Below, in pieces: positions 12,349 to 35,698 of a stretch of DNA of 44,783 bases. The DNA lies in assembly GCF_009863025.1 (NCBI RefSeq), contig NZ_WWIR01000314.1, positions 1-44,783 of the forward strand, read 5' to 3'. Below the pieces are notes generated by a model. The model saw only the letters and a list, made by a program, of their open reading frames with translations, was not told the DNA's origin and did no database searches. This DNA comes from Streptomyces sp. SID4985 (lineage in GTDB: Bacteria > Actinomycetota > Actinomycetes > Streptomycetales > Streptomycetaceae). How positions within the stretch are numbered: the stretch's first letter is position 1; each line of letters starts with the position of its first letter. A program made the position numbers and the translations under genes.

Positions 12349-12606
12349 GTGCGACTGAGAGCGGAGTTCACCACCGAACCCTTCGACCTGGACGAGGCCC
12401 CCGCGCACGCCGTGGTGGCCCGCGAGGTCATCGAGGGCGCCGGGCTCGACGCCGTCGACGTGGGGCCGTTCGGCAACACGGTCGAGGGCAGCGCCGACGG
12501 GGTGCTCGCCGCCCTGGACGAGGTGCTGCGCCGCACCCTCGGCGCGGGCGCCACCCGGATCTCCCTCCAGGTCAACGTGATCGGCGCCGAGGAGCAGGGC
12601 AGATGA
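12349..12606 (+). CDS. Thiamine-binding (MTH1187/DUF77-like) protein
   Basis: 85 aa, GTG start. Small ferredoxin-like-fold protein of the MTH1187 type. The pattern REVIEGAGLDAVDVGPFGNTVEG followed by a second helix and ISLQVNVIG matches the family, whose members bind thiamine or related ligands; what it does here is unknown. It overlaps the next gene by 4 nt (ATGA), so both are expressed together. It stands at the head of the urate-degradation block, where it could sense or buffer a heterocyclic ligand (inference). Confidence 0.75.
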   Translation: MRLRAEFTTEPFDLDEAPAHAVVAREVIEGAGLDAVDVGPFGNTVEGSADGVLAALDEVLRRTLGAGATRISLQVNVIGAEEQGR

Positions 12607-12971
12607 CCCCCGCCCCGGACGAGCCCTTCATCGCGGCCGTGAAACCGCTGGTCGACGCCATGGGCGGACGGCTCCTCCCGCCGGACGAGGCGGGCCCCGA
12701 CGACGTGGTCCTCGCCTGGGAGGGCGCCGACGTCGTCGCCGTACGGCTGCCGCAGCTCGCGGACTCCCTGGACCACATCCTCGCCGCCATGGAGCGCGCG
12801 CGGGGCTGCCCGCTGGCCGACCTGGACCGCAAGGCCAAGCAGGAGGTCGTACGGACACTGGAGGCGCGGGGTGCCTTCGCCGTACGGCACGGGGTGGAGA
12901 CCGTGGCCGGGGCGCTCGGCGTCAGCCGCTTCACCATCTACAACTACCTCAACCGGGAGAAGGGCCGCTGA
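12603..12971 (+). CDS. Helix-turn-helix domain protein, purine-cluster regulator candidate
   Basis: 122 aa. The last 30 residues, GVETVAGALGVSRFTIYNYLNR, form a helix-turn-helix with the recognition helix SRFTIYNYL, of the Fis/PucR C-terminal style. The first ~60 residues make a small alpha/beta sensor-like domain (DDVVLAWEGADVVAVRLPQLADSLDHIL). Coupled to the thiamine-binding-like gene by ATGA. The size and C-terminal HTH suggest a compact regulator. Candidate sites are the palindrome at 12268 and the TTCAACA operator at 13054; neither link can be proven from sequence. Confidence 0.8.
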   Translation: MTPAPDEPFIAAVKPLVDAMGGRLLPPDEAGPDDVVLAWEGADVVAVRLPQLADSLDHILAAMERARGCPLADLDRKAKQEVVRTLEARGAFAVRHGVETVAGALGVSRFTIYNYLNREKGR

Positions 12972-13053: not shown

Positions 13054-13070
13054 TTCAACAAAGTGTTGAC
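13054..13070 (+). promoter_or_regulatory. Operator of the urate operon (TTCAACA-N3-TGTTGA)
   Basis: TCAACA-AAG-TGTTGA (13055-13069) is a perfect 6+3+6 inverted repeat. It overlaps the -35 region, which implies repression. Nearly the same site, TTCAACA-GAA-CGTTGA, lies before allantoinase at 30588; 13 of 17 positions are identical. In S. coelicolor the allantoin genes are controlled by the IclR-family AllR; this pair of sites would suit such a repressor. Confidence 0.65.
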
Positions 13071-13095
13071 GTGCCGTCGCCGTCAGGCGTTAGCT
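13066..13095 (+). promoter_or_regulatory. Promoter of the OHCU decarboxylase-urate oxidase operon
   Basis: -35 TTGACG (13066-13071), 18-bp spacer, -10 TTAGCT (13090-13095), about 49 nt before the GTG start at 13144. The operator half-site TGTTGA is inside the -35. Confidence 0.5.
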
Positions 13096-13143: not shown

Positions 13144-13656
13144 GTGACTTCGCCAGCGACACCCCCGGGCCTGGCCCGGTTCAACGCCCTGGAGGAACGC
13201 GCGGCCCGCGCCGCCCTCCACGAGGTCTGCGCCTCCGCCGAGTGGGGCCGCCGGCTGCTCGCCGCCCGGCCGTACGCCACCCCGGACGAGCTGTACGCCG
13301 CCGCCGACACCGCCCTCGCGGAGCTGGACGAGCCCGGCCTCACGGAGGCCATCGCGGGCCACCCCCCGATCGGCCGCCCCAAGCCCGGCGACCCCGCCTC
13401 CGCCCGGGAACAGCGCGGCATGGCGGGCGCCTCCGACGACCTGCGCGCGGAGATGCTGGACCTGAACCTCGCCTACCAGGAACGGTTCGGCCATGTCTTC
13501 CTCATCTGCGCCACCGGACTGACCGCCGAGCGGATGCGCGACGCGCTGAAGGAGCGGATCGGCAACGCTCCGGAGCGCGAGAGGGAGATCGCCCGCGCCG
13601 AACTGGGCAGGATCAACCGCATTCGGCTGACCCGCCTCGTCGCCAAGGACGCGTGA
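13144..13656 (+). CDS. uraD: OHCU decarboxylase (2-oxo-4-hydroxy-4-carboxy-5-ureidoimidazoline decarboxylase)
   Basis: 170 aa, the usual length. It converts OHCU to S-allantoin, the last step of urate oxidation. The family motif HPPIGRPK (catalytic His near residue 75), SAREQRGMAG and YQERFGHVFLICATG are present. GTG 13144 is chosen because GGAGG sits 5 nt upstream and the first residues (TSPATPPGLARFNAL) fit homologues; the frame extends upstream to 13063 but passes through the promoter. First gene of a tight operon with HIU hydrolase and urate oxidase (gaps of 3-4 nt), and carries the operator at 13054. Confidence 0.93.
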   Translation: MTSPATPPGLARFNALEERAARAALHEVCASAEWGRRLLAARPYATPDELYAAADTALAELDEPGLTEAIAGHPPIGRPKPGDPASAREQRGMAGASDDLRAEMLDLNLAYQERFGHVFLICATGLTAERMRDALKERIGNAPEREREIARAELGRINRIRLTRLVAKDA

Positions 13657-13659
13657 ACC

Positions 13660-14028
13660 ATGCCCACGACCTCCGTCTCCACCCATGTCCTCGACACCGC
13701 CGCGGGCCGTCCCGCCGCGGGCATCGCCGTACGGCTCCTCGCCCGCGCCGCGCCCGACGCCGACTGGCGGGAGGCGGGCACCGGGACCACCGACACCGAC
13801 GGCCGCTGCCGCGACCTGCCGGACCCGCCGGAGGGCACGGTGTGGGCGCGGCTGGACTTCGCCGTGGAGCCGTACCTCGCCGAAGCTCACGAACAAGCCG
13901 AAGCCCAGGAGCAAGAGGCCGCCTTCTTCCCCGAAGTGACCGTCACCTTCGCCGTACGACCCGGCGAGCACTACCACGTACCGCTGCTGCTCAGCCCGTT
14001 CGGCTACTCCGTATACCGAGGGAGTTAG
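13660..14028 (+). CDS. uraH: 5-Hydroxyisourate hydrolase (transthyretin-like)
   Basis: 122 aa. It hydrolyses 5-hydroxyisourate, the uricase product, to OHCU. STHVLDTAAGRPA at the N-terminus and the C-terminal YRGS tetrapeptide are the diagnostic ends of the transthyretin-like family; HYHVPLLLSPFGYSVYRGS provides the C-terminal active-site strand. Between the usual FxxxxY and FFPEVTV strands there is an extra Glu/Gln/Ala-rich segment (EAHEQAEAQEQE) that lengthens a loop by roughly 7 residues. Starts 3 nt after the previous stop. Confidence 0.93.
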   Translation: MPTTSVSTHVLDTAAGRPAAGIAVRLLARAAPDADWREAGTGTTDTDGRCRDLPDPPEGTVWARLDFAVEPYLAEAHEQAEAQEQEAAFFPEVTVTFAVRPGEHYHVPLLLSPFGYSVYRGS

Positions 14029-14032
14029 CACC

Positions 14033-14956
14033 ATGGCAGACGCATCCCGCCCCGCCGGTCCCGCCCTCCTGGGGCAGAACCAGTACGGCAAGGCCGAGAA
14101 CCGGGTCGTCCGGATCACCCGGGACGGCACCACCCACCACATCAAGGACCTCAACGTCTCCGTCACGCTCAGCGGCGAGATGGACGAGGTCCACTACTCC
14201 GGCTCCAACGCCAACGTCCTGCCGACCGACACCACCAAGAACACGGTGTACGCCTTCGCCAAGAAGCACGGCATCGAGTCCGCCGAGGCCTTCGGCATCC
14301 TCCTCGCCCGGCACTTCGTCACCTCGCAGGAGGCGATCGGCAGGGCGCGTATCCGTATCGAGGAGTACGCCTGGGAGCGGATCGCGCTGCCCGGCGCCCC
14401 CGAGGGCGGCCACTCCTTCGTCCGCAAGGGCCAGGAGACCCGGCTCGCCCAGATCACGTACGACGGCTCGGCGTGGGAGGTCGTCTCGGGCCTCGCGGAC
14501 CTGGTGGTGCTGAACTCCACCGACTCCGAGTTCTGGGGGTACGCCAAGGACGAGTACACCACCCTGCCCGAGGCCCACGACCGCGTGCTGGCGACCGAGG
14601 TCACCGCCCGCTGGCGGTACGGCTGGACCGGCGAGGGCAAGACCCCCGACTGGGACGTGTCGTACGAGGAGGCCCGGCGCCGGTTGCTGGAGGCATTCGC
14701 CGGGACGTACTCGTACTCCCTCCAGCAGACCTTGTTCGCCATGGGTTCCCGGGTGCTGGAGACGCGTGACGAGATCGACGAGATCCGGCTCTCCCTGCCG
14801 AACAAGCACCACTTCCTGGTCGACCTCGCACCCTTCGGGCTGACCAACGACAACGAGGTGTACCTCGCCGCCGACCGGCCCTACGGCCTCATCGAGGCGA
14901 CCGTCCTGCGGGAGGGGCGCGAGGCCGCGATCCCGGTGGACCTCACCAATCTCTGA
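14033..14956 (+). CDS. Urate oxidase (factor-independent uricase)
   Basis: 307 aa. It oxidises urate with O2 to 5-hydroxyisourate and H2O2. Family signatures: QNQYGKAENRVVRI (catalytic Lys near residue 17), VLPTDTTKNTVYAFAK (Thr/Asp pair near 62-66), and SLQQTLFAMGSRVLE near 227 with the urate-contacting Gln. Length is typical for the tunnel-fold enzyme. It begins 4 nt after the HIU hydrolase stop, so substrate channelling order in the operon is decarboxylase-hydrolase-oxidase, the reverse of the pathway. Confidence 0.96.
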   Translation: MADASRPAGPALLGQNQYGKAENRVVRITRDGTTHHIKDLNVSVTLSGEMDEVHYSGSNANVLPTDTTKNTVYAFAKKHGIESAEAFGILLARHFVTSQEAIGRARIRIEEYAWERIALPGAPEGGHSFVRKGQETRLAQITYDGSAWEVVSGLADLVVLNSTDSEFWGYAKDEYTTLPEAHDRVLATEVTARWRYGWTGEGKTPDWDVSYEEARRRLLEAFAGTYSYSLQQTLFAMGSRVLETRDEIDEIRLSLPNKHHFLVDLAPFGLTNDNEVYLAADRPYGLIEATVLREGREAAIPVDLTNL

Positions 14957-15027: not shown

Positions 15028-16407
15028 GTGGCAGCAGTCGAGCGCATCGTCATCGAGAACTGCGCGATCGCGACCGTCGACGCGGACGGCACCGAGTACG
15101 CCTCGGGACACCTGGTCCTCGCGGGCGACCGGATCGAATCCGTCGGCGCGGGCCCGGCACCCGAGGGGCTGTCGGACGTCACCCGGCGCATCGACGCCAC
15201 CGGGCACCTGGCGACCCCCGGCCTGGTCAACACCCACCACCACTTCTACCAGTGGCTCACCCGGGGCCTGGCCACCGACCACAACCTCTTCGACTGGCTG
15301 GTCGCGCTCTACCCGACCTGGGCGTGCCTGGACGAGGACATGGTCCGTACGGCCGCTCAGGGCTCCCTCGCGATGATGGCGCGCGGGGGTGTCACCACGG
15401 CGATGGACCACCACTACGTGTATCCGCGCGGCACCGGCGACCTGTCCGGGGCGATCATCGGGGCCGCCCGCGAGACCGGCGTGCGCTTCACCCTGGCCCG
15501 GGGCTCGATGGACCGGGGCGAGTCGGACGGCGGACTGCCCCCGGACTTCGCGGTGGAGACCCTGGACGACGCGCTGGCGGCCACGGAGGCGACGGTGCGG
15601 GAGCACCACGACTCCTCCTTCGGCGCCCTGACCCAGGTCGCCGTGGCCCCCTGCTCCCCCTTCTCCGTGTCGACCGAACTGATGCGTCAGGGAGCCGAGT
15701 TGGCGCGCTCGCTCGGCGTGCGGCTGCACACCCACGGCTCGGAGACGGTGGAGGAGGAGAAGTTCTGCCACGAGCTGTTCGGGATGGGCCCGACCGACTA
15801 CTTCGAGTCCACCGGCTGGCTCGGCGAGGACGTGTGGATGGCGCACTGCGTCCACATGAACGACGCCGACATCGCCGCCTTCGCCCGCACCGGCACGGGC
15901 GTCGCCCACTGCCCCTCCTCCAACGCCCGCCTCGCGGCGGGCATCGCGCGCGTCCCCGACATGCTCCGGGCGGGCGTCCCGGTCGGCCTCGGCGTGGACG
16001 GAACGGCGTCCAACGAGTCCGGCGAACTCCACACCGAACTGCGCAACGCCCTCCTCGTCAACCGTCTCGGCCCCCACCGCGAGTCCGCCCTCACCGCCCG
16101 CCAGGCTCTGCGCCTGGGCACCTTCGGCGGTGCCCAGGTCCTGGGCCGCGCCGGGGAGATCGGCTCCCTGGAACCGGGCAAGCTGGCCGACCTGGTCCTG
16201 TGGCGCATGGACACCCTGGCCCACGCCTCCATCGCGGACCCGGTGGCGGCGCTGGTCCTCGGCGCGGCGGCCCCGGTCACGGCGTCGTTCGTGGGCGGAC
16301 GGCAGATCGTGGCGGACGGGCGGCTGGTGCACGTGGACGAGGAGGCTGTCGCCCGCGCGACCCGGGCCGAGGCGCGGCGCCTGGCGCGGATCGCCGGGCA
16401 GGCGTGA
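15028..16407 (+). CDS. 8-Oxoguanine deaminase (amidohydrolase superfamily)
   Basis: 459 aa. Expected to deaminate 8-oxoguanine to urate, directly feeding the preceding uricase; a guanine or other aminopurine deaminase is the alternative. Metal and active-site motifs: TPGLVNTHHHFYQ (~65-77), LHTHGSETVEEEKF (~232), VWMAHCVHM (~270) and GLGVDGTASNES (~320), as in the 8-oxoguanine deaminase/TrzN group. The C-terminal half ends in the usual beta-strand metal-dependent hydrolase extension. AAAGGA precedes the GTG start at 15028. It follows urate oxidase by 71 nt and is probably in the same operon. Confidence 0.88.
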   Translation: MAAVERIVIENCAIATVDADGTEYASGHLVLAGDRIESVGAGPAPEGLSDVTRRIDATGHLATPGLVNTHHHFYQWLTRGLATDHNLFDWLVALYPTWACLDEDMVRTAAQGSLAMMARGGVTTAMDHHYVYPRGTGDLSGAIIGAARETGVRFTLARGSMDRGESDGGLPPDFAVETLDDALAATEATVREHHDSSFGALTQVAVAPCSPFSVSTELMRQGAELARSLGVRLHTHGSETVEEEKFCHELFGMGPTDYFESTGWLGEDVWMAHCVHMNDADIAAFARTGTGVAHCPSSNARLAAGIARVPDMLRAGVPVGLGVDGTASNESGELHTELRNALLVNRLGPHRESALTARQALRLGTFGGAQVLGRAGEIGSLEPGKLADLVLWRMDTLAHASIADPVAALVLGAAAPVTASFVGGRQIVADGRLVHVDEEAVARATRAEARRLARIAGQA

Positions 16408-21908: not shown

Positions 21909-23426
21909 CTATTGACCGTATGCGTCGCGCTCCAAAACGAACGGGTGTGGCAGCGCCGCCCATTGGTCGCCCGGCGTCTCGGGCGAGAGCCGCATCAGCG
22001 TCAACGCCTTGGCGGGCAGCGGCTCGTCGCACAGGGCCGCCAGATCAGGCGTACGGGACAGGTGGGGCAACGCGCCCCGCAGCGCGGCGGCCAGCGCCGG
22101 ACCCGAACCGGCCGTCGCGGCCAGCGCACCCGCCACCAGCGAGCCGAATAGTTTGTGCCGCAACACGTTCACGTCGTCCGAAATCAGCCGCCCGGTCAGC
22201 GCGGGCGGTGTGATGCCGTGCCGGGCCAGCCGCTCGGGGCTGATCCGGATGTCCGCCAGATCGCGGTAGACCAGCCGCAGCGGGGCGCCGTCCGCGCCCA
22301 GCACCACGAGCAGGTTCTGTCCGTGCGCCTCCAGCGCGACGCCAAGGTCCAGCAGCCGCAGCCCGGTTGTCAGCGCGAGCCGGGTGAAGGCGGTCATCCA
22401 CTCGGCCGACCGGGGCAGTTCCGTCGCGGCCAGCGCCGCCACCGGCACCACACGCTCACCCGGACCCGCGTACGTCTCCGGGGACTCCCGCAACTGCGCG
22501 GCCAGGTCGGGGGAGCGGGCCGTGGCCGCGCCCAGCGCGCGGGTGACGTGCAGTAGACCGTCGGTCCGCGCGGCCAGCTCCGTCGCGAACGAGGACAGGG
22601 TGGCCGACGCCTTCACCGAGTACACGGAGATGTCCCGCACCGAGGAGGTCAGCCGGGCACTGAGCGCGGTCTTCACATGCGGGCCGCCCGGGACCGCCAG
22701 CGTGCGCAGCGCCATCAACGGGTGGGCCGCGCGCCAGGGTTCGGCCGACCGCTTCAGCACATGCGCCGCCTGCCAGGGATGCACCGGCAGCAACAGATCG
22801 CCCCCGGCCCGCAGTTCCTCGGGCCAGTCGCCCGACACCAGGCACTCCGAGGCTGGTACGGCCACCGTGCCCAGCCACACCACCGGCCGGTGCTCCGGGC
22901 CGTACGCCAGCTGGTCCGCCACCGAGAAGCCGGGCCGGGAACGGCAGTTGGGGTGGTACGGGTGGCCGTCGACCACGCGCTGCTCCCACTCCCAGTCGTG
23001 CGCGGGCCACTCCTCCCCGGACGCCTCGGCGTTCGCCCGCGACAGGGCCAGCGAGGCCACGCTGCCCGCGAGTTCGGTGGCGAAGGCGGCCGCGTGCGGC
23101 ACCGCGAGGTCGGTCATCAGGCGCGCGGGGTCGTCGTAGCGCTCGCGGTCCAGCCATAGCGTGCGGACGTGGTCGCCGGTGGCGTACGGATCGGAGTGCG
23201 GGCCGCGCAGCGCCCGGCCGTCGGCCAGGCGCAGGGTGCGCCCCTCGGCGTCCGCGGCGCGGCCGGTGATCCAGGGCAGCGGCTCGTGGACCAGCGCGCG
23301 CCACAGCCGGGTCAGCACCGCCGCCCGGGCTCCCTGCAGCGCGGCCGCGTATCTGCCGAGCAGGGCGGGCCGTACGGCGGTCAGCTCCTCGGCGATCTCG
23401 GCCTCGGCAGTGGGAGAGTGGTACAC
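21909..23426 (-). CDS. IucA/IucC-family NIS siderophore synthetase (A)
   Basis: 505 aa, GTG start with GAGGAG upstream. NRPS-independent siderophore synthetase that adenylates a carboxylate (citrate, succinate or similar) and joins it to an amine or alcohol. Motifs in order: DGHPYHPNCRSRPGFS (~160-175), LLPVHPWQ (~217), HVKTALSARLTSSVRDIS (~255), LEAHGQNLLV (~385) and YRDLADIRIS (~405), all typical of the family. About 80-100 residues shorter than IucA or DesD. Divergent from a second NIS synthetase at 23717. No amine-forming decarboxylase, monooxygenase or transporter lies beside it. Confidence 0.9.
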   Translation of the reverse strand: MYHSPTAEAEIAEELTAVRPALLGRYAAALQGARAAVLTRLWRALVHEPLPWITGRAADAEGRTLRLADGRALRGPHSDPYATGDHVRTLWLDRERYDDPARLMTDLAVPHAAAFATELAGSVASLALSRANAEASGEEWPAHDWEWEQRVVDGHPYHPNCRSRPGFSVADQLAYGPEHRPVVWLGTVAVPASECLVSGDWPEELRAGGDLLLPVHPWQAAHVLKRSAEPWRAAHPLMALRTLAVPGGPHVKTALSARLTSSVRDISVYSVKASATLSSFATELAARTDGLLHVTRALGAATARSPDLAAQLRESPETYAGPGERVVPVAALAATELPRSAEWMTAFTRLALTTGLRLLDLGVALEAHGQNLLVVLGADGAPLRLVYRDLADIRISPERLARHGITPPALTGRLISDDVNVLRHKLFGSLVAGALAATAGSGPALAAALRGALPHLSRTPDLAALCDEPLPAKALTLMRLSPETPGDQWAALPHPFVLERDAYGQ

Positions 23427-23716: not shown

Positions 23717-25252
23717 ATGGATCGCGTGGACCTCCAGCCTCACACCGACGACGTCGGCCGGCGCGCCGACGCCTATGCGGCGGCGCCCCTGCTCAACTGC
23801 CTGCTCCGCGAGGTCGCCACGCCGCTCCCGGACCCCGACGAGTGGCCCGTCCACCGGCTGCCCGGCACCGGACGGCTGCTGCGCGTGCGCCCCGGCCGCC
23901 GCCCGGCCTGCCCCGAGGTGCGCACCGGAGACCAGTGGCAGCGCGTCGGCCACACCGAACTGGTCAAACTCGTCGCGGAGGAACTGCGTCGGCACACCGG
24001 ACTGACCGGCGGCGACCTGCCCGCCGAGATGATCGACAGCCGGGACACGGTCGCCGCGCTGCTCACCGCCCGCGCCCGCACCGTCGCGCCCGAGGACCCG
24101 TATCTGCGCTCCGAGCAGTCGCTGATCACCGGCCACCCCCACCACCCCGCCCCCAAGGCGCGCGGCGGCGGTCCGGCCGCCGCCTGGCTGCGCTACGCCC
24201 CCGAGGCCCATGGCCGCTTCCCACTGACCCTGCTCGGCGTCCGCGAGGACCAGGTGGCCGAGGAGGGCGACACCGGCGCCCTGGACGCCCTCGGCACCGC
24301 CCCGCCCGGCTACCGGCTGCTGCCCGCCCACCCCTGGCAGCTCGACCTCCTCGCCCGCGAACTGACCCCCGCCTTCGAGGACGGGCGCCTGGTCCGGCTC
24401 GGCGAGACGCCCTTCGTGGTGTGGCCGACGGCCGCCGTCCGCACGGTGTACGAGCCCGAGCGCGATCTGTTCCTGAAGTTCAGCCTCGACGTCCGCATCA
24501 CCAACGACATCCGCCGCCTGTGGCGCCACGACCTGGCCAGACTCCGCCGCACCGACGAGGCGGCCACCGGCGCCTTCGCGACCATGGACGGCCCCGCAGC
24601 CTGGCTGAGCGACCGCGGCTACCGCACCGCCGCCTTCGCCTTCGAGGAACTGGCCGTCCTCGTCCGCGACGGCCTGCGCGACCATGTGCTGCCCGGCGCC
24701 ACCCCGCTGCTCGCCGCCGGGCTCGCCGAGGGCTTCGACGGCGACCCGCTGGCTTCCACGCCCGACCCCGGCGCCTGGTGGACGGCCTACCTCCGCGCGG
24801 TCGTCCCGCCCGCGCTCACCGCCTTCGACACCCACGGCGTCGTCCTGGAGGCCCACCTCCAGAACACCCTGGTCGCCGTGGACGCCGCCGGTACACCCGT
24901 CCAGGCGCTGTTCCGCGACGCCGAGGGGGCGAAGCTCCTGCCGGAGGTCTCCCGCGCGGCGGGCTGGGAGCGGCTGGTGTACTGCCTGGTCGTCAACAAC
25001 CTCACCGAGATCGCCGCCGCCCTCGCCGAACGCCACCCCGGCTTCGACCCCTGGCCCGCCGTCCGCCGCGAACTGGCCCGCCACGCCCTGCCGGAGATCC
25101 CGGCCCTGCTGACGGCGCCCAGCCTGCCGGGCAAGACCAACCTGCTGCTGCGCTGGACCGGGGCGGACGGCGCCGACGCCCGCTATCTGCCGCTGCCCAA
25201 CCCGCTGGCCGACGGACACCCGCCACTGGCCGACGGGCACACCGACGCTTGA
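23717..25252 (+). CDS. IucA/IucC-family NIS siderophore synthetase (B)
   Basis: 511 aa. Second NIS synthetase. Motifs: LITGHPHHPAPKARGG (~135), LLPAHPWQLDLL (~202), LKFSLDVRITNDIRRL (~255, the K-x7-T/N-x2-R active-site segment), LEAHLQNTLV (~375) and LFRDAEGAKLLP (~395). ATG 23717 is preferred: the frame opens at TTG 23462, but those 85 residues are Arg-rich without family similarity. Its divergence from synthetase A suggests two successive condensations on one scaffold, or two substrate halves. The C-terminus carries a small repeat (LADGHPPLADGH). Confidence 0.9.
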   Translation: MDRVDLQPHTDDVGRRADAYAAAPLLNCLLREVATPLPDPDEWPVHRLPGTGRLLRVRPGRRPACPEVRTGDQWQRVGHTELVKLVAEELRRHTGLTGGDLPAEMIDSRDTVAALLTARARTVAPEDPYLRSEQSLITGHPHHPAPKARGGGPAAAWLRYAPEAHGRFPLTLLGVREDQVAEEGDTGALDALGTAPPGYRLLPAHPWQLDLLARELTPAFEDGRLVRLGETPFVVWPTAAVRTVYEPERDLFLKFSLDVRITNDIRRLWRHDLARLRRTDEAATGAFATMDGPAAWLSDRGYRTAAFAFEELAVLVRDGLRDHVLPGATPLLAAGLAEGFDGDPLASTPDPGAWWTAYLRAVVPPALTAFDTHGVVLEAHLQNTLVAVDAAGTPVQALFRDAEGAKLLPEVSRAAGWERLVYCLVVNNLTEIAAALAERHPGFDPWPAVRRELARHALPEIPALLTAPSLPGKTNLLLRWTGADGADARYLPLPNPLADGHPPLADGHTDA

Positions 25253-25267: not shown

Positions 25268-26182
25268 GTGCTGCGCGAGGTGACCGCCGTCCGATACGTG
25301 ACCCCGTTGCGGTCCGGAGGCTCCGTACCCGGAGTCGTCGAGGCCGACGACCTGGGGACCTATGTCACGAAGTTCACCGGCTCCGCCCAGGGACACAAGG
25401 CCCTGGTCGCCGAGGTGATCGTCGGGGAGCTGGCCCGCGCGCTCGGGCTGCGCTTCCCCGAACTGGTCCTGGTGCACTTCGACCCGGCCATCGCCGCCGA
25501 CGAACCGCACCAGGAGGTACGCGAGCTGCACGGCGCCAGCGCGGGCGTGAACCTCGGCATGGACTACCTCTCCGGCGCCGTCGACCTCACCCCCGAGCTG
25601 GCCCGCGACTTCCCCGTGGACCCGCTGGAGGCGGGCCGGATCGTCTGGCTGGACGCGCTGACCGCCAACGTGGACCGCACCGTCCACAGCTCCAACCTGA
25701 TGCTCTGGCCCACCCGCGGTACCGTGCCCCCGCGCCTGTGGCTCATCGACCACGGTGCCGCCCTCGTCTTCCACCACCGCTGGGACACCACCGCGCCCGG
25801 CAAGAAGTACGACTTCCGCCACCACGCCCTCGGCTCCTACGGCCCCGACGTACGGGCCGCCGACGCCGAACTGGCCCCGCTGGTGACCGAGGAACTGCTG
25901 CGCCGCGTCGTCGCCGAGGTGCCCGACGCCTGGCTCGCCGAGGACGCGGGCTTCGCGACCCCGGACGACGTGCGCGCCGCCTACGTCGACTACCTCCTCG
26001 ACCGCGTCCGGCTGTCCGAGCAGTGGCTGCCCACCGACTTCCCCAGCCGCGAGGAGATCGCGGCCGAGGACGCCGCGCGCGCGGCACGTACCCAGCGGGG
26101 CCGTCCGGACTGGCTGAAGGCGGTTCCCGATCTGCACGGCAAACCGGCGGCGAAACAGGACTGGTCGGTGCATCTCCAATGA
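25268..26182 (+). CDS. HipA-like kinase family protein
   Basis: 304 aa, GTG start after a TAGGCT box. It resembles the short HipA-like family lacking the N-terminal HipA subdomain. TYVTKFTGSAQGHKALVAEVIVGELAR near residues 36-60 carries a likely ATP-binding Lys. LDALTANVDRTVHSSNLML near 130 matches the HipA catalytic loop (N-D-R-H-x-x-N), and LWLIDHGAALVF near 157 supplies the metal-binding Asp. True HipA pairs with HipB; no HipB-like HTH gene is adjacent, so a toxin-antitoxin role is doubtful. It is followed by a SelT/W/H-like gene. Confidence 0.82.
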   Translation: MLREVTAVRYVTPLRSGGSVPGVVEADDLGTYVTKFTGSAQGHKALVAEVIVGELARALGLRFPELVLVHFDPAIAADEPHQEVRELHGASAGVNLGMDYLSGAVDLTPELARDFPVDPLEAGRIVWLDALTANVDRTVHSSNLMLWPTRGTVPPRLWLIDHGAALVFHHRWDTTAPGKKYDFRHHALGSYGPDVRAADAELAPLVTEELLRRVVAEVPDAWLAEDAGFATPDDVRAAYVDYLLDRVRLSEQWLPTDFPSREEIAAEDAARAARTQRGRPDWLKAVPDLHGKPAAKQDWSVHLQ

Positions 26183-26246: not shown

Positions 26247-26555
26247 ATGAGCCGTGTCGTGATCGAGTACTGCACCCAGTGCCGCTGGCTGCCCCGCGCG
26301 GCCTGGCTGGCGCAGGAACTGCTCACCACCTTCGAGAGCGAGCTGACCGAGCTGGCCCTCAAGCCCGGCACCGGCGGCGTCTTCGTCGTCCGGGTCGACG
26401 ACGAGGTGGTCTGGGACCGCCGCGAGCAGGGCTTCCCCGAGCCCACGGCGGTCAAGCGGCTGGTCCGCGACCGGGTGGCCCCGGGCCGCTCCCTCGGCCA
26501 CTCGGACGGTCCCTCGGACAAGGGAGGCGACCCGGCCCCCGGGGTCAGCCCCTGA
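26247..26555 (+). CDS. SelT/SelW/SelH (Rdx) family protein, cysteine form
   Basis: 102 aa. Thioredoxin-like fold protein of the Rdx family with the redox motif CTQC (IEYCTQC-RWLPRAAWLAQELL) at residues 9-12; cysteine replaces the selenocysteine of animal members. GGVFVVRVDDEVVWDRREQGFPEP is the conserved second half. Likely a cytosolic redox or metal-handling protein with unknown partner. The last ~20 residues are a Ser/Gly/Pro tail. GAGGGGG precedes the start. Ends inside a 13-bp tandem repeat shared with the convergent malate synthase gene. Confidence 0.88.
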   Translation: MSRVVIEYCTQCRWLPRAAWLAQELLTTFESELTELALKPGTGGVFVVRVDDEVVWDRREQGFPEPTAVKRLVRDRVAPGRSLGHSDGPSDKGGDPAPGVSP

Positions 26556-26581
26556 GGCCAGCCTCTGGGGTCAGCCTCTGA
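26543..26581. repeat. 13-bp tandem repeat spanning both stop codons of convergent genes
   Basis: Three units GGTCAGCCCCTGA, GGCCAGCCTCTGG and GGTCAGCCTCTGA. The TGA of the SelT/W/H gene (26553-26555) is in the first unit, and the stop of malate synthase (26571-26573, read on the minus strand) in the third. Confidence 0.65.
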
Positions 26582-28196
26582 GGTGCCGGTAGGCGGGCAG
26601 CGTCAGGAAGTCCGCGTACTCCGCGTCCAGGGCCACCTGGAGGAAGAGGTCGTGCGCCTCCTGCCAGCGGCCCGCGGCGAACGCGTCCTCGCCCAACTCA
26701 TCCCGGATGGCGCCGAGTTCATCGGAGGCGATGGAGCGGACCAGCTCGGGCACGGCCCGCTCGCCGTTCTCGAACTCCACGCCCGCGTTGATCCACTGCC
26801 AGATCTGCGAGCGCGAGATCTCCGCCGTGGCCGCGTCCTCCATCAGGTTGAAGATGGCCACCGCGCCCAGACCGCGCAGCCACGCCTCGATGTAACGGAC
26901 GCCCACCTGAACGGCGTTGACGAGGCCGCCGTACGTCGGCCGCGCCTCCAGCGTGCCGACCGCGAGCAGGTCGCCCGCCGTCACCCGGACGTCCTCGCGC
27001 AGCCGGTCCTTCTGGTGCGGGCGGTCACCGAGCACCTTGTCGAAGGACTCCAGGGCGATCGGCACCAGGTCCGGATGCGCCACCCAGGAGCCGTCGAAAC
27101 CGTCCCCCGCCTCACGGTCCTTGTCCGCGCGCACCTTCTCGAAGGCGACCCGGTTGACCTCCGCGTCCTTGCGGGACGGGATGAACGCCGCCATCCCGCC
27201 GATCGCGTGCGCGCCCCGCTTGTGGCAGGTGCGGACGAGGAGTTCGGTGTACGCCCGCATGAACGGCGCGGTCATCGTGACCGCGTTGCGGTCCGGCAGC
27301 ACGAACTCCGGTCCCGCGTCACGGAAGTTCTTGATGAGGGAGAAGAGATAGTCCCAGCGGCCCGCGTTCAACCCCGAGGCGTGCTCGCGGAGTTCGTAGA
27401 GGATCTCCTCCATCTCGAACGCCGCCGTGATCGTCTCGATCAGCACGGTGGCCCGTACGGTGCCGCGCGGGACGCCGAGATACTCCTGTGCGAACACGAA
27501 CACGTCGTTCCACAGCCGGGCTTCGAGGTGCGACTCGGTCTTCGGCAGGTAGAAGTACGGCCCCTTGCCGAGCTCCAGCAGCCGCCGTGTGTTGTGGAAG
27601 AAGTACAGCCCGAAGTCCACGAGGGCGCCGGGCAGCGGAGTGCCGTCGGCGCCGACGAGATGCCGCTCGTCCAGATGCCAGCCGCGCGGCCGCATGACGA
27701 CGGTCGCCAACTCCTCGTCCGGGCGCAGCGCGTACGACTTCCCGGTGCGCTCGTCCGTGAAGTCGACCTGGCGCGCGTAGGCGTCCCTCAGGTTGAGCTG
27801 CCCGAGGACCACGTTCTCCCAGGTGGGCGCCGAGGCGTCCTCGAAGTCGGCCAGCCAGATCCGGGCGCCCGAGTTCAGCGCGTTCACCGTCATCCGGCGG
27901 TCGGTGGGGCCGGTGATCTCCACCCGCCGGTCCTCCAGCGCGGGCGGCGCCGGGGCGACCCGCCAGTCCTCGTCCGCGCGCACGTCCGCCGTCTCCGGCA
28001 GAAAGTCCAGCGTGCCCGTCCGCGCGATCTCGTCCCGCCGCCCGGCCCTCCGCGCCAGCAGCTCGTCCCGCCGGAGAGTGAAACGCCGGTGCAACTCCCC
28101 GAGAAACGCCAGCGCCTCCCCGGTCAGCACCTCCTCCTGCCGGGGCAGCGACGGAGCATCCACGACCGTGGGCGGGGACGACGCGGGTGCGGACAT
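26571..28196 (-). CDS. aceB: Malate synthase (A-type)
   Basis: 541 aa, the normal size of isoform A. Condenses glyoxylate with acetyl-CoA to malate in the cytosol. MTVNALNSGARIWLADFEDASAPTWENV (~95-122), MRPRGWHLDERHL (~165), DFGLYFFHNTRRLL, IETITAAFEMEEILYELREH (~255) and the C-terminal catalytic region GVEFENGE are conserved. GAGGAAG lies 9 nt before ATG 28196. No isocitrate lyase is nearby; the neighbouring allantoinase and allantoicase genes make glyoxylate from ureidoglycolate a likely source. I do not find the TTCAACA operator upstream of this gene. Confidence 0.96.
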   Translation of the reverse strand: MSAPASSPPTVVDAPSLPRQEEVLTGEALAFLGELHRRFTLRRDELLARRAGRRDEIARTGTLDFLPETADVRADEDWRVAPAPPALEDRRVEITGPTDRRMTVNALNSGARIWLADFEDASAPTWENVVLGQLNLRDAYARQVDFTDERTGKSYALRPDEELATVVMRPRGWHLDERHLVGADGTPLPGALVDFGLYFFHNTRRLLELGKGPYFYLPKTESHLEARLWNDVFVFAQEYLGVPRGTVRATVLIETITAAFEMEEILYELREHASGLNAGRWDYLFSLIKNFRDAGPEFVLPDRNAVTMTAPFMRAYTELLVRTCHKRGAHAIGGMAAFIPSRKDAEVNRVAFEKVRADKDREAGDGFDGSWVAHPDLVPIALESFDKVLGDRPHQKDRLREDVRVTAGDLLAVGTLEARPTYGGLVNAVQVGVRYIEAWLRGLGAVAIFNLMEDAATAEISRSQIWQWINAGVEFENGERAVPELVRSIASDELGAIRDELGEDAFAAGRWQEAHDLFLQVALDAEYADFLTLPAYRHLRG

Positions 28197-28312
28197 GAGC
28201 GGTCACTTCCTCAACTCACGGACGGTCGCTTCTGAGATGCGGATCGTAGGTTTTTCCCGGGGGAACCTCAACGGGTGGGGGATCTTCGGCGGGGCGTGAG
28301 ATCGTCGTGACC

Positions 28313-28690
28313 ATGATCGAGTCCTGGGTGATCGCCGACGACGGCACCGCTCCGGTGGCGGCCGAGACGGTTCGGGAGGCTCTCCGGGCGCGGATCGGCC
28401 GTGGACGCCTTGAGACGTGGCTGGTCGGTTCGTCCGGCCGGTCCTTGGCGGTGCTGACGAACACCGAGCGGGCCATGGTCATGCTGCTCGCGGAGGAGGG
28501 CGACCCCGGCGAGCACGCCGTGGACCCGGAAGCCCGGGGGTCGAGTGCGGGGTTCGTGTCGGCCAACGGGCAGCACGACGCGTACTCGAACGCGGACACC
28601 GTGCCCCTCGGGGAGGCGTTGCGCATCGTGGAGCACATCGTCCGCGCCGGGACGTGGCCCCCGGGCGCGCACCCGGTCTCCGATCGCTGA
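28313..28690 (+). CDS. Imm1-family immunity-like protein
   Basis: 125 aa from ATG 28313 (GTG 28307 also possible). The C-terminal half, GFVSANGQHDAYSNADTVPLGEALRIVEHIVRAGTWP, fits the Imm1 pattern of polymorphic-toxin immunity proteins, in which a beta hairpin is followed by a helix and a G-x-W/x-P end. The N-terminal half has a strand-rich LAVLTNTERAMVMLLAEEGDPGEHA segment. No toxin gene or secretion-linked N-terminus is adjacent, so it would be an orphan immunity gene. Imm1-like proteins are also widespread without toxins in Streptomyces. Confidence 0.72.
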   Translation: MIESWVIADDGTAPVAAETVREALRARIGRGRLETWLVGSSGRSLAVLTNTERAMVMLLAEEGDPGEHAVDPEARGSSAGFVSANGQHDAYSNADTVPLGEALRIVEHIVRAGTWPPGAHPVSDR

Positions 28691-29309: not shown

Positions 29310-29613
29310 GCGTCCTGCATACCCGGCGTCCGGCATCCATGTCCCGTCCGGAGGATCGGATGTCCCCAGGAGTCACGGCCCACCCATCCTCCAAGTGATC
29401 ATTGTCACCGGGGCGTGTGCCGCCGACTCCTTGTAGCGTCGGCCCTCCGAAGTTGATCTTTGGGTGCTTCAGCCACAACGGGGTCGCTGGGGTGTGCGAC
29501 GAGTCCTGGCCCGCTGCTCGGCGGCGAATGCCCCGCCCCGCCAAGGCCACCCCCGCCACCCGGCCGACCGGTACCACCGCCCGGGTCCGGTCCGCCCACA
29601 CCGGGAGAAGTCC
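29310..29613. other. Intergenic region, divergent promoters; no gene seen
   Basis: 304 bases between the nucleotidyltransferase and the DMT transporter. Nothing coding is convincing in any frame; the frame running into the transporter is Arg/Pro-rich. TATGCA lies near the nucleotidyltransferase start. In S. coelicolor an IclR-type AllR gene is near this position in the allantoin locus; I find no helix-turn-helix coding sequence here. Confidence 0.45.
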
Positions 29614-30603
29614 ATGCCCACCACACCCGCCACCACCCCGGGCTCCCGCAGAGCCTGGCTGACCGACGGCCCCGTACTGCTGGTCGCCATCGTCTGGGGC
29701 TCCAGCTATCTGGCCACCAAGAACATCACGCGTGAAGACACCGTCATCACCCTGCTCCTGCTGCGCTTCCTCATCGCCGTCCCGCTCCTCGGCCTCGTGG
29801 CGCGACGCGCGATGCGGCGGCTGACGGTACGTGAGCTGGGCGGCGGAGGCGTCCTGGGGCTGATTCTCGCCGCCATCTTCCTGCTGGAGACCTACGGCGT
29901 CGTCCACACCTCGGCGACGAACGCCGGGCTGATCATCAGCCTCACCATGGTCTTCACCCCGCTCGCCGAAGCCGCCCTCAACCGCACCCCACCCAGCCGG
30001 TCCTTCCTGGCCGCGGCCGCGCTCTCCCTGCTCGGCGTCGCCCTGCTCACCCAGGGCACCGGCTTCACCGCGCCCTCCCTCGGCGACCTGCTCATGCTGC
30101 TGGCCGCCGTCGCCCGTACGGTCAACGTCCTGGTGATTCACCGACTCCCCGCCGTACGGGACACCGACGACGCGGCGCTCACCTTCGTCCAACTGTCCAC
30201 CGCCGTCGCCGTCTTCGCGCTCCTGTCCCCGATGAGCGGAACCGGCCCGTGGCAGCTGGCGACGTCCTTCACCGGTGCCCAGTGGGTCAACCTGCTCTAC
30301 CTGTCCGTCATGTGCACCCTGTTCGCCTTCTTCATCCAGCTCTGGGCCGTACGCCGAAGCTCCCCCTCCCGCGTCAGTCTCCTCCAGGGCACCGAACCCC
30401 TGTGGGCCGCAGTCATCGGCGTCGCCCTCGGCGGCGACCACCCCGGCGCCCTCGGCTACCTGGGTGCCGTCCTCGTGCTCGCCGGAACCACCTGGGGCCG
30501 CCGCGCGGCCGAACACCGCCCCGCGGCCGACGCGCGGTCGCCACACCCCCGCACCCTTGACGCCGCACCGCCCGCCATGAAGACTCCTTCAACAGAACGT
30601 TGA
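29614..30603 (+). CDS. DMT-superfamily (EamA) transporter
   Basis: 329 aa integral membrane protein with ~10 predicted helices in two EamA halves. The first starts GPVLLVAIVWGSSYLATKNITRED (~19-42), the second NLLYLSVMCTLFAFFIQLWAVRRSSPSRVSLLQGTEPLWAAVIGVALGG (~225-275). Drug/metabolite transporters export amino acids, purines or drugs; the substrate here is unknown. GGGAGAAG sits 4 nt before ATG 29614. The last ~30 residues are a Pro/Arg-rich cytoplasmic tail. Its stop codon lies within the operator of the next gene, so the two may be separately controlled. Confidence 0.88.
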   Translation: MPTTPATTPGSRRAWLTDGPVLLVAIVWGSSYLATKNITREDTVITLLLLRFLIAVPLLGLVARRAMRRLTVRELGGGGVLGLILAAIFLLETYGVVHTSATNAGLIISLTMVFTPLAEAALNRTPPSRSFLAAAALSLLGVALLTQGTGFTAPSLGDLLMLLAAVARTVNVLVIHRLPAVRDTDDAALTFVQLSTAVAVFALLSPMSGTGPWQLATSFTGAQWVNLLYLSVMCTLFAFFIQLWAVRRSSPSRVSLLQGTEPLWAAVIGVALGGDHPGALGYLGAVLVLAGTTWGRRAAEHRPAADARSPHPRTLDAAPPAMKTPSTER

Positions 30604-30604
30604 A
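30588..30604 (+). promoter_or_regulatory. Operator of the allantoinase-allantoicase genes
   Basis: TTCAAC-AGAAC-GTTGAA (30588-30604) is a perfect 6-bp inverted repeat, the partner of the site at 13054. It covers the TGA stop of the DMT gene (30601-30603) and ends 69 nt before the allantoinase start. Confidence 0.65.
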
Positions 30605-30673: not shown

Positions 30674-32005
30674 GTGTCCGACGCCGAACTGGCGCTGCGT
30701 TCGACGCGCGTCGTCACGCCGGAGGGGGTGCGGGCCGCCACGGTCACCGTCGCCGCCGGGACCGTCACCGCGGTGCTGCCGCACGACGCGCCGCTCCCGG
30801 ACGCGACCCGGCTGGAGGAGCTGGGTGACCACGCGCTGCTGCCCGGCCTGGTCGACACCCATGTGCACGTCAATGATCCCGGCCGGGCGGAGTGGGAGGG
30901 CTTCCGCACCGCCACGCGCGCGGCGGCCGCCGGGGGCATCACCACCCTCGTGGACATGCCGCTCAACTCCCTGCCGCCGACAACGACTACGGCCCACCTG
31001 GACGTCAAAAGGGCCGCGGCGCACGGCCGTACGCACATCGACGTCGGCTTCTGGGGCGGCGCGCTGCCGGGCAACGTCAAGGACCTGCGCCCGCTGCACG
31101 AGGCGGGAGTCTTCGGGTTCAAGGCGTTCCTGTCGCCGTCCGGCGTGGACGAGTTCCCGCACCTGGAGCGGGAGCAACTGGCCCGCTCGCTCGCGGAGAT
31201 CGCCGGATTCGGTGGTCTGCTGATCGTGCACGCCGAGGACCCGACCCGGCTCGCCGACGCCCCCGCCGGGACGGCGTACGCGGGCTTCCTCGCCTCCCGG
31301 CCGCACGCGGCCGAGACCGAGGCCATCGCCCAACTCATCGAGCAGGCACGCCGCTTGGATGCACGGGTGCACGTACTCCACCTCTCCTCCGCCGCCGCGC
31401 TCCCGCTGATTGACGCCGCCAAGGCCGACGGCGTCCGCCTCACCGTGGAGACCTGCCCGCACTACCTCACCCTCACCGCCGAGGAAGTCCCGGACGGGGC
31501 AAGCGAGTTCAAGTGCTGCCCGCCCATCCGCGAGGCCGCCAACCAGGACCTGCTGTGGCAGGCGCTCGCCGACGGCACGATCGACTGCGTGGTGACCGAC
31601 CACTCGCCGTCCACCGCCGACCTCAAGACACCGGACTTCGCGACCGCCTGGGGTGGCATCTCCGGGCTCCAGTTGAGCCTTCCGGCGGTGTGGACGGAAG
31701 CGCGCCGCCGGGGCCACGGCCTCGCGGACGTGGTCCGCTGGATGTCCGCGCGCACCGCCGCCCTGGCGGGTCTCGACCGCAAGGGCGCCATCGCGCCCGG
31801 CCGCGACGCCGACTTCGCCGTCCTCGCCCCCGAGGAGACCTTCACCGTGGACCCGGCCCGGCTCCAGCACCGCAACCCGGTCACCGCGTACGCGGGCAGG
31901 ACGCTGCACGGCGTGGTGAAGTCGACCTGGCTGCGCGGCGAACGGGTGTACGCGAACGGTGAGTTCACCGAGCCGAGAGGCCGCCTCCTCACCCGCACTC
32001 GATGA
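30674..32005 (+). CDS. allB: Allantoinase
   Basis: 443 aa. Hydrolyses allantoin to allantoate. Amidohydrolase metal sites are all visible: [14 protein letters not shown] (HxH, ~57-70), the carbamylated Lys in [11 protein letters not shown] (~148), LLIVHAED (~183), HVLHLSS (~238) and the catalytic Asp in VVTDHSPST (~313). GTG 30674 is preceded by GAGAGGGG. Allantoicase follows after a tandem-repeat spacer. Regulated, by inference, through the operator at 30588, in step with the urate operon. Confidence 0.96.
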
Positions 32006-32113
32006 GCCCCCGCGTACTCGATGAGCCCCCGCGTACCGATGAGCCCTCGCGTCCACGACGAGCCCTCGCGTCCACGACGAGCCCCCGCGTTCACGTTGAG
32101 CCCCCGCGTCAGT
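32001..32113. repeat. Six-copy 18-19 bp tandem repeat between allantoinase and allantoicase
   Basis: Units start at 32001, 32020, 32038, 32057, 32076 and 32095, consensus GAYGAGCCCYCGCGTNCNC; the second is 18 bp, the others 19. The first includes the TGA stop of allantoinase. 19 bp is not a codon multiple, and the region is probably untranslated, ending just before the allantoicase ribosome-binding site. Confidence 0.88.
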
Positions 32114-32125
32114 GAAAGGAACCCA

Positions 32126-33247
32126 GTGACGGCGCCCCGATTCACCGGACCCGCAGCCCCGTTCGGCGGCGGCGACCCCTACGCCGACTACCGCACCGCC
32201 GACTTCCCCTTCACGACGTACACCGACCTCGCCGACCGGCGGCTCGGCGCGGGGGTCGTCGCGGCGAACGACGAGTTCTTCGCCGAGCGGGAGAACCTGC
32301 TCACGCCCGGCCGGGCCGTCTTCGACCCCGGGCACTTCGGCCACAAGGGCAAGGTGATGGACGGCTGGGAGACCCGGCGACGGCGCGGTACGGACGCCGG
32401 GCACCCGTGGCCCACCGCCGAGGACCACGACTGGGCGCTGATCCGCCTCGGCGCGCCCGGGGTGATCCGGGGGATCGTCGTGGACACCGCCCACTTCCGG
32501 GGCAACCACCCCGAGGCCGTCTCCGTCGAGGCCGCCTCGGTGCCCGGCACCCCGTCACCGGAGCAACTCCTCGGCGACGACGTGAAGTGGACGACGCTCG
32601 TCCCGCGCACCCCGGTCGGCGGCCACGCGGCCAACGGCTTCGAGGTGTCGGCACGGCAGCGCTTCACCCACCTGCGCCTCAACCAGCACCCCGACGGCGG
32701 AATCGCCCGGCTGCGGGTGTACGGCGAGGTCGCCCCGGACCCTGAATGGCTCGCGGCACTCGGCACCTTCGACGTCGTCGCCCTGGAGAACGGCGGCCGC
32801 GTCGAGGACGCCTCCGACCGCTTCTACTCCCCACCCGCCCACACCATCCTTCCGGGCAACTCCCGTCGTATGGACGAGGGTTGGGAGACGCGTCGGCGCC
32901 GCGACCGGGGCCACGACTGGATCACCTACCGCCTCACCGCCCAGTCGGAGATCCGGGCGGTCGAGATCGACACGGCGTGTCTGAAGGGCAACAGTGCGGG
33001 GTGGGCGTCGGTGTCGGTACGGGACGGCGAGGACAGCTCAGGCGCCGACTGGGTCGAACTCCTGCCCCGCACCCGCCTCCAGCCCGACACCCGCCACCGC
33101 TTCGTCCTCCCGGCCCCGGCCGTCGGCACGCACGCGCGGGTGGACATCTACCCCGACGGCGGCATCTCCCGGCTCCGTCTGTTCGGCTCGCTCACGGAGA
33201 CGGGGGCGTCCCAACTCGCGGCGCGCCACCGGGAACTGGGCGGCTGA
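32126..33247 (+). CDS. alc: Allantoicase
   Basis: 373 aa. Splits allantoate into ureidoglycolate and urea. Built from two similar jelly-roll halves: MDGWETRRRRGTD...DWALIRLGAPG...VDTAHFRGNHPE at ~75-135 and MDEGWETRRRRDRGHDWITYRL...IDTACLKGNSAGWASV at ~250-300, each followed by a HLRLNQHPDGGIARLRVYG or ARVDIYPDGGISRLRLFG strand. GTG 32126 is chosen because AAAGGA (32115-32120) precedes it; the frame is open back through the tandem repeat (MSPRV-type residues), which I take as non-coding. Confidence 0.95.
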   Translation: MTAPRFTGPAAPFGGGDPYADYRTADFPFTTYTDLADRRLGAGVVAANDEFFAERENLLTPGRAVFDPGHFGHKGKVMDGWETRRRRGTDAGHPWPTAEDHDWALIRLGAPGVIRGIVVDTAHFRGNHPEAVSVEAASVPGTPSPEQLLGDDVKWTTLVPRTPVGGHAANGFEVSARQRFTHLRLNQHPDGGIARLRVYGEVAPDPEWLAALGTFDVVALENGGRVEDASDRFYSPPAHTILPGNSRRMDEGWETRRRRDRGHDWITYRLTAQSEIRAVEIDTACLKGNSAGWASVSVRDGEDSSGADWVELLPRTRLQPDTRHRFVLPAPAVGTHARVDIYPDGGISRLRLFGSLTETGASQLAARHRELGG

Positions 33248-35302: not shown

Positions 35303-35698
35303 ATGAGATTCCCCCCACGAACGTCTCGCATCGGCGCCGCCGCCGCGCTGCTCTCGGCGCTCCTTGTCGGCGGCACGGTCGCCACCGGCACGGCGGACGC
35401 GGCCACCGCGTCCGTCGGCAGCATCTGCTACGGCGACCTGCCCTCGCAGGCCTACGACACCCTGGAACTCATCGACCAGGGCGGCCCGTTCCCCTACTCC
35501 CAGGACGGCGTCGTCTTCCAGAACCGAGAAGGCGTCCTGCCCAGCCAGTCGTCCGGCTACTACCACGAGTACACGGTCAAGACCCCGGGCGAATCCACCC
35601 GCGGCGCCCGACGCATCGTCACCGGCAAGGCGTACGAGGAGGACTACTACACCTCCGACCACTACGCCACGTTCGACCTGATCGACTTCGGCTGCTGA
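35303..35698 (+). CDS. Secreted guanyl-specific ribonuclease, RNase Sa-like
   Basis: 131 aa: signal peptide MRFPPRTSRIGAAAALLSALLVGG...ADA, then a ~96-aa mature enzyme closely resembling Streptomyces RNase Sa. Conserved blocks include DTLELIDQGGPFPYSQDGVVFQNRE, GYYHEYTV (catalytic Glu), TRGARRIVTG (catalytic Arg pair) and TSDHYATF (catalytic His). Two Cys (ICYGD and FGC at the C-terminus) would make the single disulfide of the family. Cleaves single-stranded RNA after guanosine outside the cell. No barstar-like inhibitor gene is adjacent; a DUF1963-like and a SUKH gene follow after a strong terminator. Confidence 0.94.
   Translation: MRFPPRTSRIGAAAALLSALLVGGTVATGTADAATASVGSICYGDLPSQAYDTLELIDQGGPFPYSQDGVVFQNREGVLPSQSSGYYHEYTVKTPGESTRGARRIVTGKAYEEDYYTSDHYATFDLIDFGC

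Follow-up and report, generated by a model that had tools for sequence, protein, structure and literature searches.

A conserved inverted repeat before the urate and allantoin operons of a Streptomyces genome that lacks allR

Two near-identical inverted repeats precede the urate and allantoin operons in the window analyzed here, a stretch of 44,783 nucleotides from Streptomyces sp. SID4985: TTCAACAAAGTGTTGAC at 13054-13070, before uraD, and TTCAACAGAACGTTGAA at 30588-30604, before allB. They follow the pattern TTCAAC-N5-GTTGAA (hereafter motif A) and represent an operator that is real, conserved and specific to the pathway. As far as the sequences allow a choice, we give close to an even chance to the reading that motif A is the operator of a dedicated purine regulator other than AllR, most likely the HTH_22 protein encoded next to uraD, with AllR probably acting on a second palindrome (motif B, see below). 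The features on which the argument draws are as follows:

12349..12606, forward strand: gene of a small thiamine-binding-like protein (PF01910, 3.4e-5, slightly under the curated cut-off)
12603..12971, forward strand: HTH_22-domain protein of 122 aa, the proposed binder of motif A (PF13309, 4.2e-20)
13054..13070, forward strand: motif A operator before uraD, TTCAACAAAGTGTTGAC (pattern scan; 22 of 24 uraD loci match at 11 of the 12 fixed letters)
13066..13071, forward strand: likely -35 element TTGACG of the uraD promoter (by eye; kept in an alignment of six genomes)
13090-13095, forward strand: candidate -10 element TTAGCT of the uraD promoter, with an 18-nt spacer (by eye; a strict scan does not find the promoter)
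13144..13656, forward strand: uraD, OHCU decarboxylase (profile match)
13660..14028, forward strand: uraH, 5-hydroxyisourate hydrolase (profile match)
14033..14956, forward strand: uricase (profile match)
15028..16407, forward strand: 8-oxoguanine deaminase-like amidohydrolase (NF006055, over the cut-off)
26571..28196, reverse strand: malate synthase A (TIGR01344, over the cut-off)
28267..28283, reverse strand: degenerate copy of motif A in the malate synthase promoter, without its left arm and with the right arm surviving as the -35 (GTTGAG)
29393..30532, forward strand: segment covering the greater part of an EamA transporter gene (29464-30603), occupying the place of allR in other species
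30588..30604, forward strand: motif A operator before allB, TTCAACAGAACGTTGAA (overlapping the EamA stop codon)
30674..32005, forward strand: allB, allantoinase (TIGR03178, over the cut-off)
32021..33247, forward strand: allantoicase (TIGR02961, over the cut-off)

The small HTH_22 gene lies upstream of the first site, which is followed by the genes in the order uraD-uraH-uricase-8-oxoguanine deaminase, and the second site precedes allB-allantoicase. The EamA reading frame ends within the allB operator, its stop codon (TGA, 30601-30603) being inside the second site. The region between the two purine operons also contains divergent IucA/IucC siderophore synthetase genes (21909-23426 and 23717-25252) and a HipA-like kinase gene (25268-26182), present in 71 of the 80 allB loci (best 80 of 579), then an Rdx-family gene (26247-26555). 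An open frame at 28307-28690, between malate synthase and a nucleotidyltransferase gene, had no match in Pfam or in the best 80 of the 579 allB loci, and the gene at 35303-35698 carries the Pfam ribonuclease domain PF00545.

Both 17-mers are located where the original prediction had placed them, and they were the only perfect matches to the pattern TTCAACANNNYGTTGA in the whole genome, a 6.6-Mb draft of 731 contigs that is 99.16% complete. That the perfect site occurs exactly twice, each time before purine genes, argues for a dedicated regulator. When up to two mismatches were allowed, the window gave 7 rows against 0.25 expected, a number that none of 100 shuffles attained; four of these rows are the sites at 13054 and 30588, each read on both strands, and, in line with the prediction, the scan shows no second site of this kind ahead of either operon. 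Genome-wide, 13 rows had one mismatch, two of them being the known sites on the other strand and the rest representing 9 further places, 6 within predicted genes and 3 outside (contigs C139, C225 and C666). The C139 site, TTGAACAGATTGTTGAT, begins 75 bp upstream of a xanthine permease gene on that other contig. At up to two mismatches the genome contained 232 matches, compared with 77 for a reversed control pattern, these being counts only.

Conservation of motif A was followed in two sets of Streptomyces sequences: i) the best 80 of 579 confirmed loci, a set that leans to close relatives, and ii) 30 genomes designated by G numbers, comprising 12 without allR and 18 picked by hand. The motif is found upstream of allB in all of the best 80 of the 579 loci, 78 of which have all 12 fixed letters. 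The G-numbered genomes carry it at 20 of 22 allB loci; the two misses are the second allB copy of G098 and a G073 locus ending at a contig edge. Upstream of uraD it reads TTCAACAAASTGTTGAC in 22 of 24 loci of the G-numbered genomes, the two misses being G031 and a G050 locus that also ends at a contig edge. None of 240 control windows inside allB scored above 10 of 14 letters. Orthologues of the xanthine permease (E<=1e-150) are present in only 6 of the 30 genomes, with motif A matching at 12 of 14 letters in five of the six loci and at 10 of 14 in G151. At malate synthase, 10 of the 12 letters are found in 69 of 72 loci (from the best 80 of 579). No motif A was detected before gcl in the 15 promoters examined (best score 8/12); the gcl gene of G130, a sixteenth that scores above the cut-off, was left out because it starts at a contig edge. 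One palindrome before several genes of the pathway across species is what characterizes a purine regulon with a shared operator, and the predicted common control site of urate oxidation and ureide breakdown is thereby borne out. Since the sequence conservation at allB stretches past the palindrome, the promoter may account for part of it.

AllR, a member of the IclR family, is reportedly the repressor of the Streptomyces allantoin genes, as published for S. coelicolor. In 79 of the best 80 of 579 loci, allR lies 164-610 bp before allB in divergent orientation, with an identity of at least 87% to the allR of locus L086; the contig of the 80th is too short to show it. Of 392 genomes in the genus, including the one studied here (G000), 380 have an orthologue (E<=1e-60). 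No allR orthologue was identified in G000: the closest IclR protein genome-wide shares 39% identity with AllR, and in the window the EamA transporter gene takes the place of allR. The gene is also missing from G206, G176 and G369, in which the region upstream of allB borders on the nucleotidyltransferase gene; G206 and G176 have the EamA counterpart on a different contig, and its insertion at the allR place was seen in G000 only. These four genomes form one clade (support 1.000), so that a single loss of allR, with insertion of the EamA gene afterwards in G000, is the simplest account. A chimeric contig is an unlikely cause of the missing gene, since the other three genomes lack allR at the same place without having the EamA gene there. 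The IclR protein at the end of contig C57 was considered as AllR and ruled out, being only 36% identical. The gcl gene (TIGR01504 over the cut-off) is absent from the same four genomes, as it is from the AllR-bearing G151, G031, G037, G043 and G340. In the drafts G168, G130 and G073 no allR was found and motif A is kept at uraD. As far as the draft assembly shows, AllR cannot read motif A in G000, and the IclR-type AllR homologue put forward in the original prediction had to be discarded as the protein that binds here; where AllR is present, its box is better sought in motif B, and AllR is probably not the reader of motif A in other genomes either.

Motif B, TTCC-N7-GGAA, is a second palindrome in the AllR-bearing genomes. 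Among the best 80 of the 579 loci it is exact at 74 of 80 allB and 72 of 72 malate synthase promoters (72 of 73 loci, L138 having been dropped), counts that are inflated relative to the wider set of genomes by the bias of these loci to close relatives. It is also exact at 12 of 15 gcl promoters, in 13 of 1718 background windows and at none of 24 uraD promoters; a score of at least 7/8 was found in 107 of the 1718 background windows. For 20 AllR-bearing genomes of the G-numbered set, exact copies are present at 9 of 19 allB and 12 of 16 malate synthase promoters, and most others retain 7 of 8 letters; an exact copy is thus missing at allB in 10 of the 19. In the AllR-less clade, 6-7 of the 8 letters remain at allB and malate synthase, with none exact, and the best scores in G000 are 6/8 at uraD, 7/8 at allB and 6/8 at malate synthase, so that this genome has neither the allR orthologue nor the exact boxes of an AllR regulon. 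G168, without a detected allR, keeps an exact motif B at gcl. Motif B is probably the AllR box, albeit not an exact one in every AllR-bearing genome; its inexact copies in the wider set and the gcl site of G168 leave this assignment likely rather than proven. The same architecture, as expected for a box of the IclR family, is seen in ATTCC-N7(5)-GGAAT, the box of the IclR-family protein GenR of Corynebacterium glutamicum, according to an excerpt of PMC8222616. GenR belongs to a different pathway, and motif A is not of the GenR box type.

Either motif can be found alone: gcl has motif B only, and uraD has motif A but no exact motif B. In AllR-bearing species the malate synthase promoter often contains both, with motif A over the -35 and motif B in the 17-nt spacer. 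The allantoin pathway is the same as in the AllR regulon of S. coelicolor, and allB and malate synthase of AllR-bearing species have motifs B and A; G000 differs in lacking allR and in having a urate operon with motif A but no exact motif B.

The HTH protein at 12603 had been named in the original prediction as the other possible binder. Its HTH_22 domain (PF13309) scores 72.0 bits against a cut-off of 29.6, and no other Pfam family, including any PAS-type sensor domain, matched the 122-aa protein at E<=0.001. Full-length YheO/DauR regulators consist of an N-terminal PAS-type YheO domain plus HTH_22. The 12603 protein has the C-terminal HTH_22 in common with them but is only 122 aa long and without the PAS-type domain. 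In 23 of 24 loci the HTH_22 gene precedes uraD. It shares 4 bases with the thiamine-binding-like gene (12349..12606), the pair being together in 23 of the 24. HTH_22 orthologues (E<=1e-40) are found in 23 of the 24 genomes that have uraD and in none of the 6 that do not, one of which, G356, has merely a weak match (2e-7). The helix GVSRFTxYNYLNR is invariant in the 23 HTH_22 sequences save for one I/V position. Co-occurrence was compared for two regulators, AllR and HTH_22, and AllR does not track uraD, being present in two genomes devoid of both uraD and allB, G043 and G340, and absent from the uraD-bearing G000, G206, G176 and G369. Because the HTH_22 gene and uraD are adjacent, linkage alone could explain their joint loss.

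Individual genomes bear on the HTH_22 protein in different ways. G031 has HTH_22 and no motif A at uraD, and the HTH_22 genes of G031 and G037 are unbroken, though their malate synthase promoters lack motif A. In G010 the HTH_22 reading frame is broken, perhaps through an assembly error, the uraD site is altered and allB is without motif A; for G035 the sequence covered does not reach the HTH_22 position. Autoregulation of the HTH_22 unit through motif A was considered and dropped, as there is no such site upstream of the unit. Structure prediction for the protein was moderate (pLDDT 84, pTM 0.54); Foldseek gave no match to the model below E 1, and a sequence search of the PDB yielded nothing convincing (best E 0.33). 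A search of the literature, with the AllR work of Navone et al. (2015) outside its coverage, returned no account of motif A or of a purine role for HTH_22. By its gene distribution, a correlative kind of evidence, the HTH_22 protein is the leading candidate for the reader of motif A, with roughly even prospects of being so.

The predicted overlap of the site with the -35 was upheld in part. At uraD the right arm forms TTGACG, and the elements TTGACG-N18-TTAGCT are conserved in the six-genome alignment, but a strict sigma-70 scan found no promoter at the uraD or the allB site, and the -10 of allB is uncertain. For malate synthase of AllR-bearing genomes the right arm of motif A makes a good -35, for example TTGAAC-N17-TAGTAT in L103. 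The position of motif A over or beside the -35 suggests that its binder acts as a repressor. In a dispersed-growth strain of S. coelicolor, SCO6209 (OHCU decarboxylase), SCO6247, SCO6248 and SCO4972 (xanthine dehydrogenase) rise together, as stated in an excerpt of PMC6629963, and such a joint rise is what shared control would give. HbpS-SenS-SenR is reported in an excerpt of PMC4991794 to lower SCO6209-6211, which would mean that further inputs exist.

Three other explanations of motif A were weighed. The similarity of the sites might reflect a conserved -35 region or chance, given the -35-like hexamer within the right arm (GTTGAC/GTTGAA); we consider this very improbable, since the left arm is conserved as well, at allB in all of the best 80 of 579 loci and at uraD in 22 of 24, and since shuffles and random windows fall short of the conservation observed. 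A further possibility is that motif A is the operator of AllR and that its copies in G000 are relics yet to decay after the loss of allR. The reported role of AllR as repressor of the allantoin genes, the position of allR divergent from allB and near motif A in 79 of the best 80 of 579 loci, and the inexact motif B of part of the AllR-bearing genomes would all fit this. So would malate synthase, where motif A has gone from the AllR-less clade, its -35 half alone being left in 3 of the 4 genomes; this decay is the behaviour expected of an AllR site and counts against the reading that we prefer. The other promoters speak differently: none of the 17 letters of motif A at uraD, allB and the permease gene varies among the 4 genomes of the AllR-less clade, despite 14-33% divergence at the four-fold sites of allB and uraD among the same genomes. 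Moreover, at gcl motif B stands with no motif A beside it, comparison with the GenR box (excerpt of PMC8222616) places motif B in the IclR-family type, and AllR occurs in G043 and G340 without uraD and allB. With both sides considered, an AllR operator appears unlikely. Motif A is also missing at malate synthase in G043, a single genome with AllR and no HTH_22 in which motif B is exact at that promoter, and this fits the reading that we prefer; on the other side, G031, G035, G037 and G010 lack it there too. The malate synthase promoter of G340 was outside the comparison, the allR of this genome not having been located in 52 stretches.

It is also possible, if rather doubtful, that an unlinked regulator (e.g. 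one of nitrogen or general purine control) binds motif A and that the HTH_22 protein is a mere neighbour. Linkage explains the co-occurrence of HTH_22 with uraD, the analysis does not give the binder directly, and G031 has HTH_22 yet no motif A at uraD; against such a regulator stands the occurrence of the perfect site only twice in the genome, both times before purine genes. The co-occurrence comparison, which covers AllR and HTH_22, tests this explanation weakly.

Purine or urate regulators with dedicated control of urate and allantoin genes are represented by PucR of Bacillus subtilis and HucR of Deinococcus, which belong to protein families other than HTH_22. In the reading that we prefer, a protein bound to motif A over or near the -35, most likely the small HTH_22 protein at 12603, would block uraD-uraH-uricase, allB-allantoicase and, where present, the xanthine permease gene, and a metabolite of the purine pathway would release the block. 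Most Streptomyces would have AllR as a second lock, probably on motif B at allB, malate synthase and gcl, so that a promoter with both motifs would hold HTH_22 on motif A over the -35 and AllR on motif B in the spacer. The ancestor of G000 lost allR, and gcl is absent too; the purine operators were kept, and motif A of malate synthase decayed. The clade that deleted allR would run on the first lock alone. It is conceivable, although we put it at somewhat below an even chance, that the PAS-less HTH_22 protein is an undescribed master repressor of the urate, allantoin and xanthine genes across Streptomyces.

Control of allantoin metabolism in Streptomyces has so far been attributed to AllR. The present data separate two palindromes that are neighbours in the allB and malate synthase promoters, assign to each a distinct set of genes, and show that a natural deletion of allR leaves one of them intact. 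The question of which protein reads motif A has thereby become testable, and, if the HTH_22 protein proves to be the reader, an uncharacterised regulator would gain both a pathway and a site.
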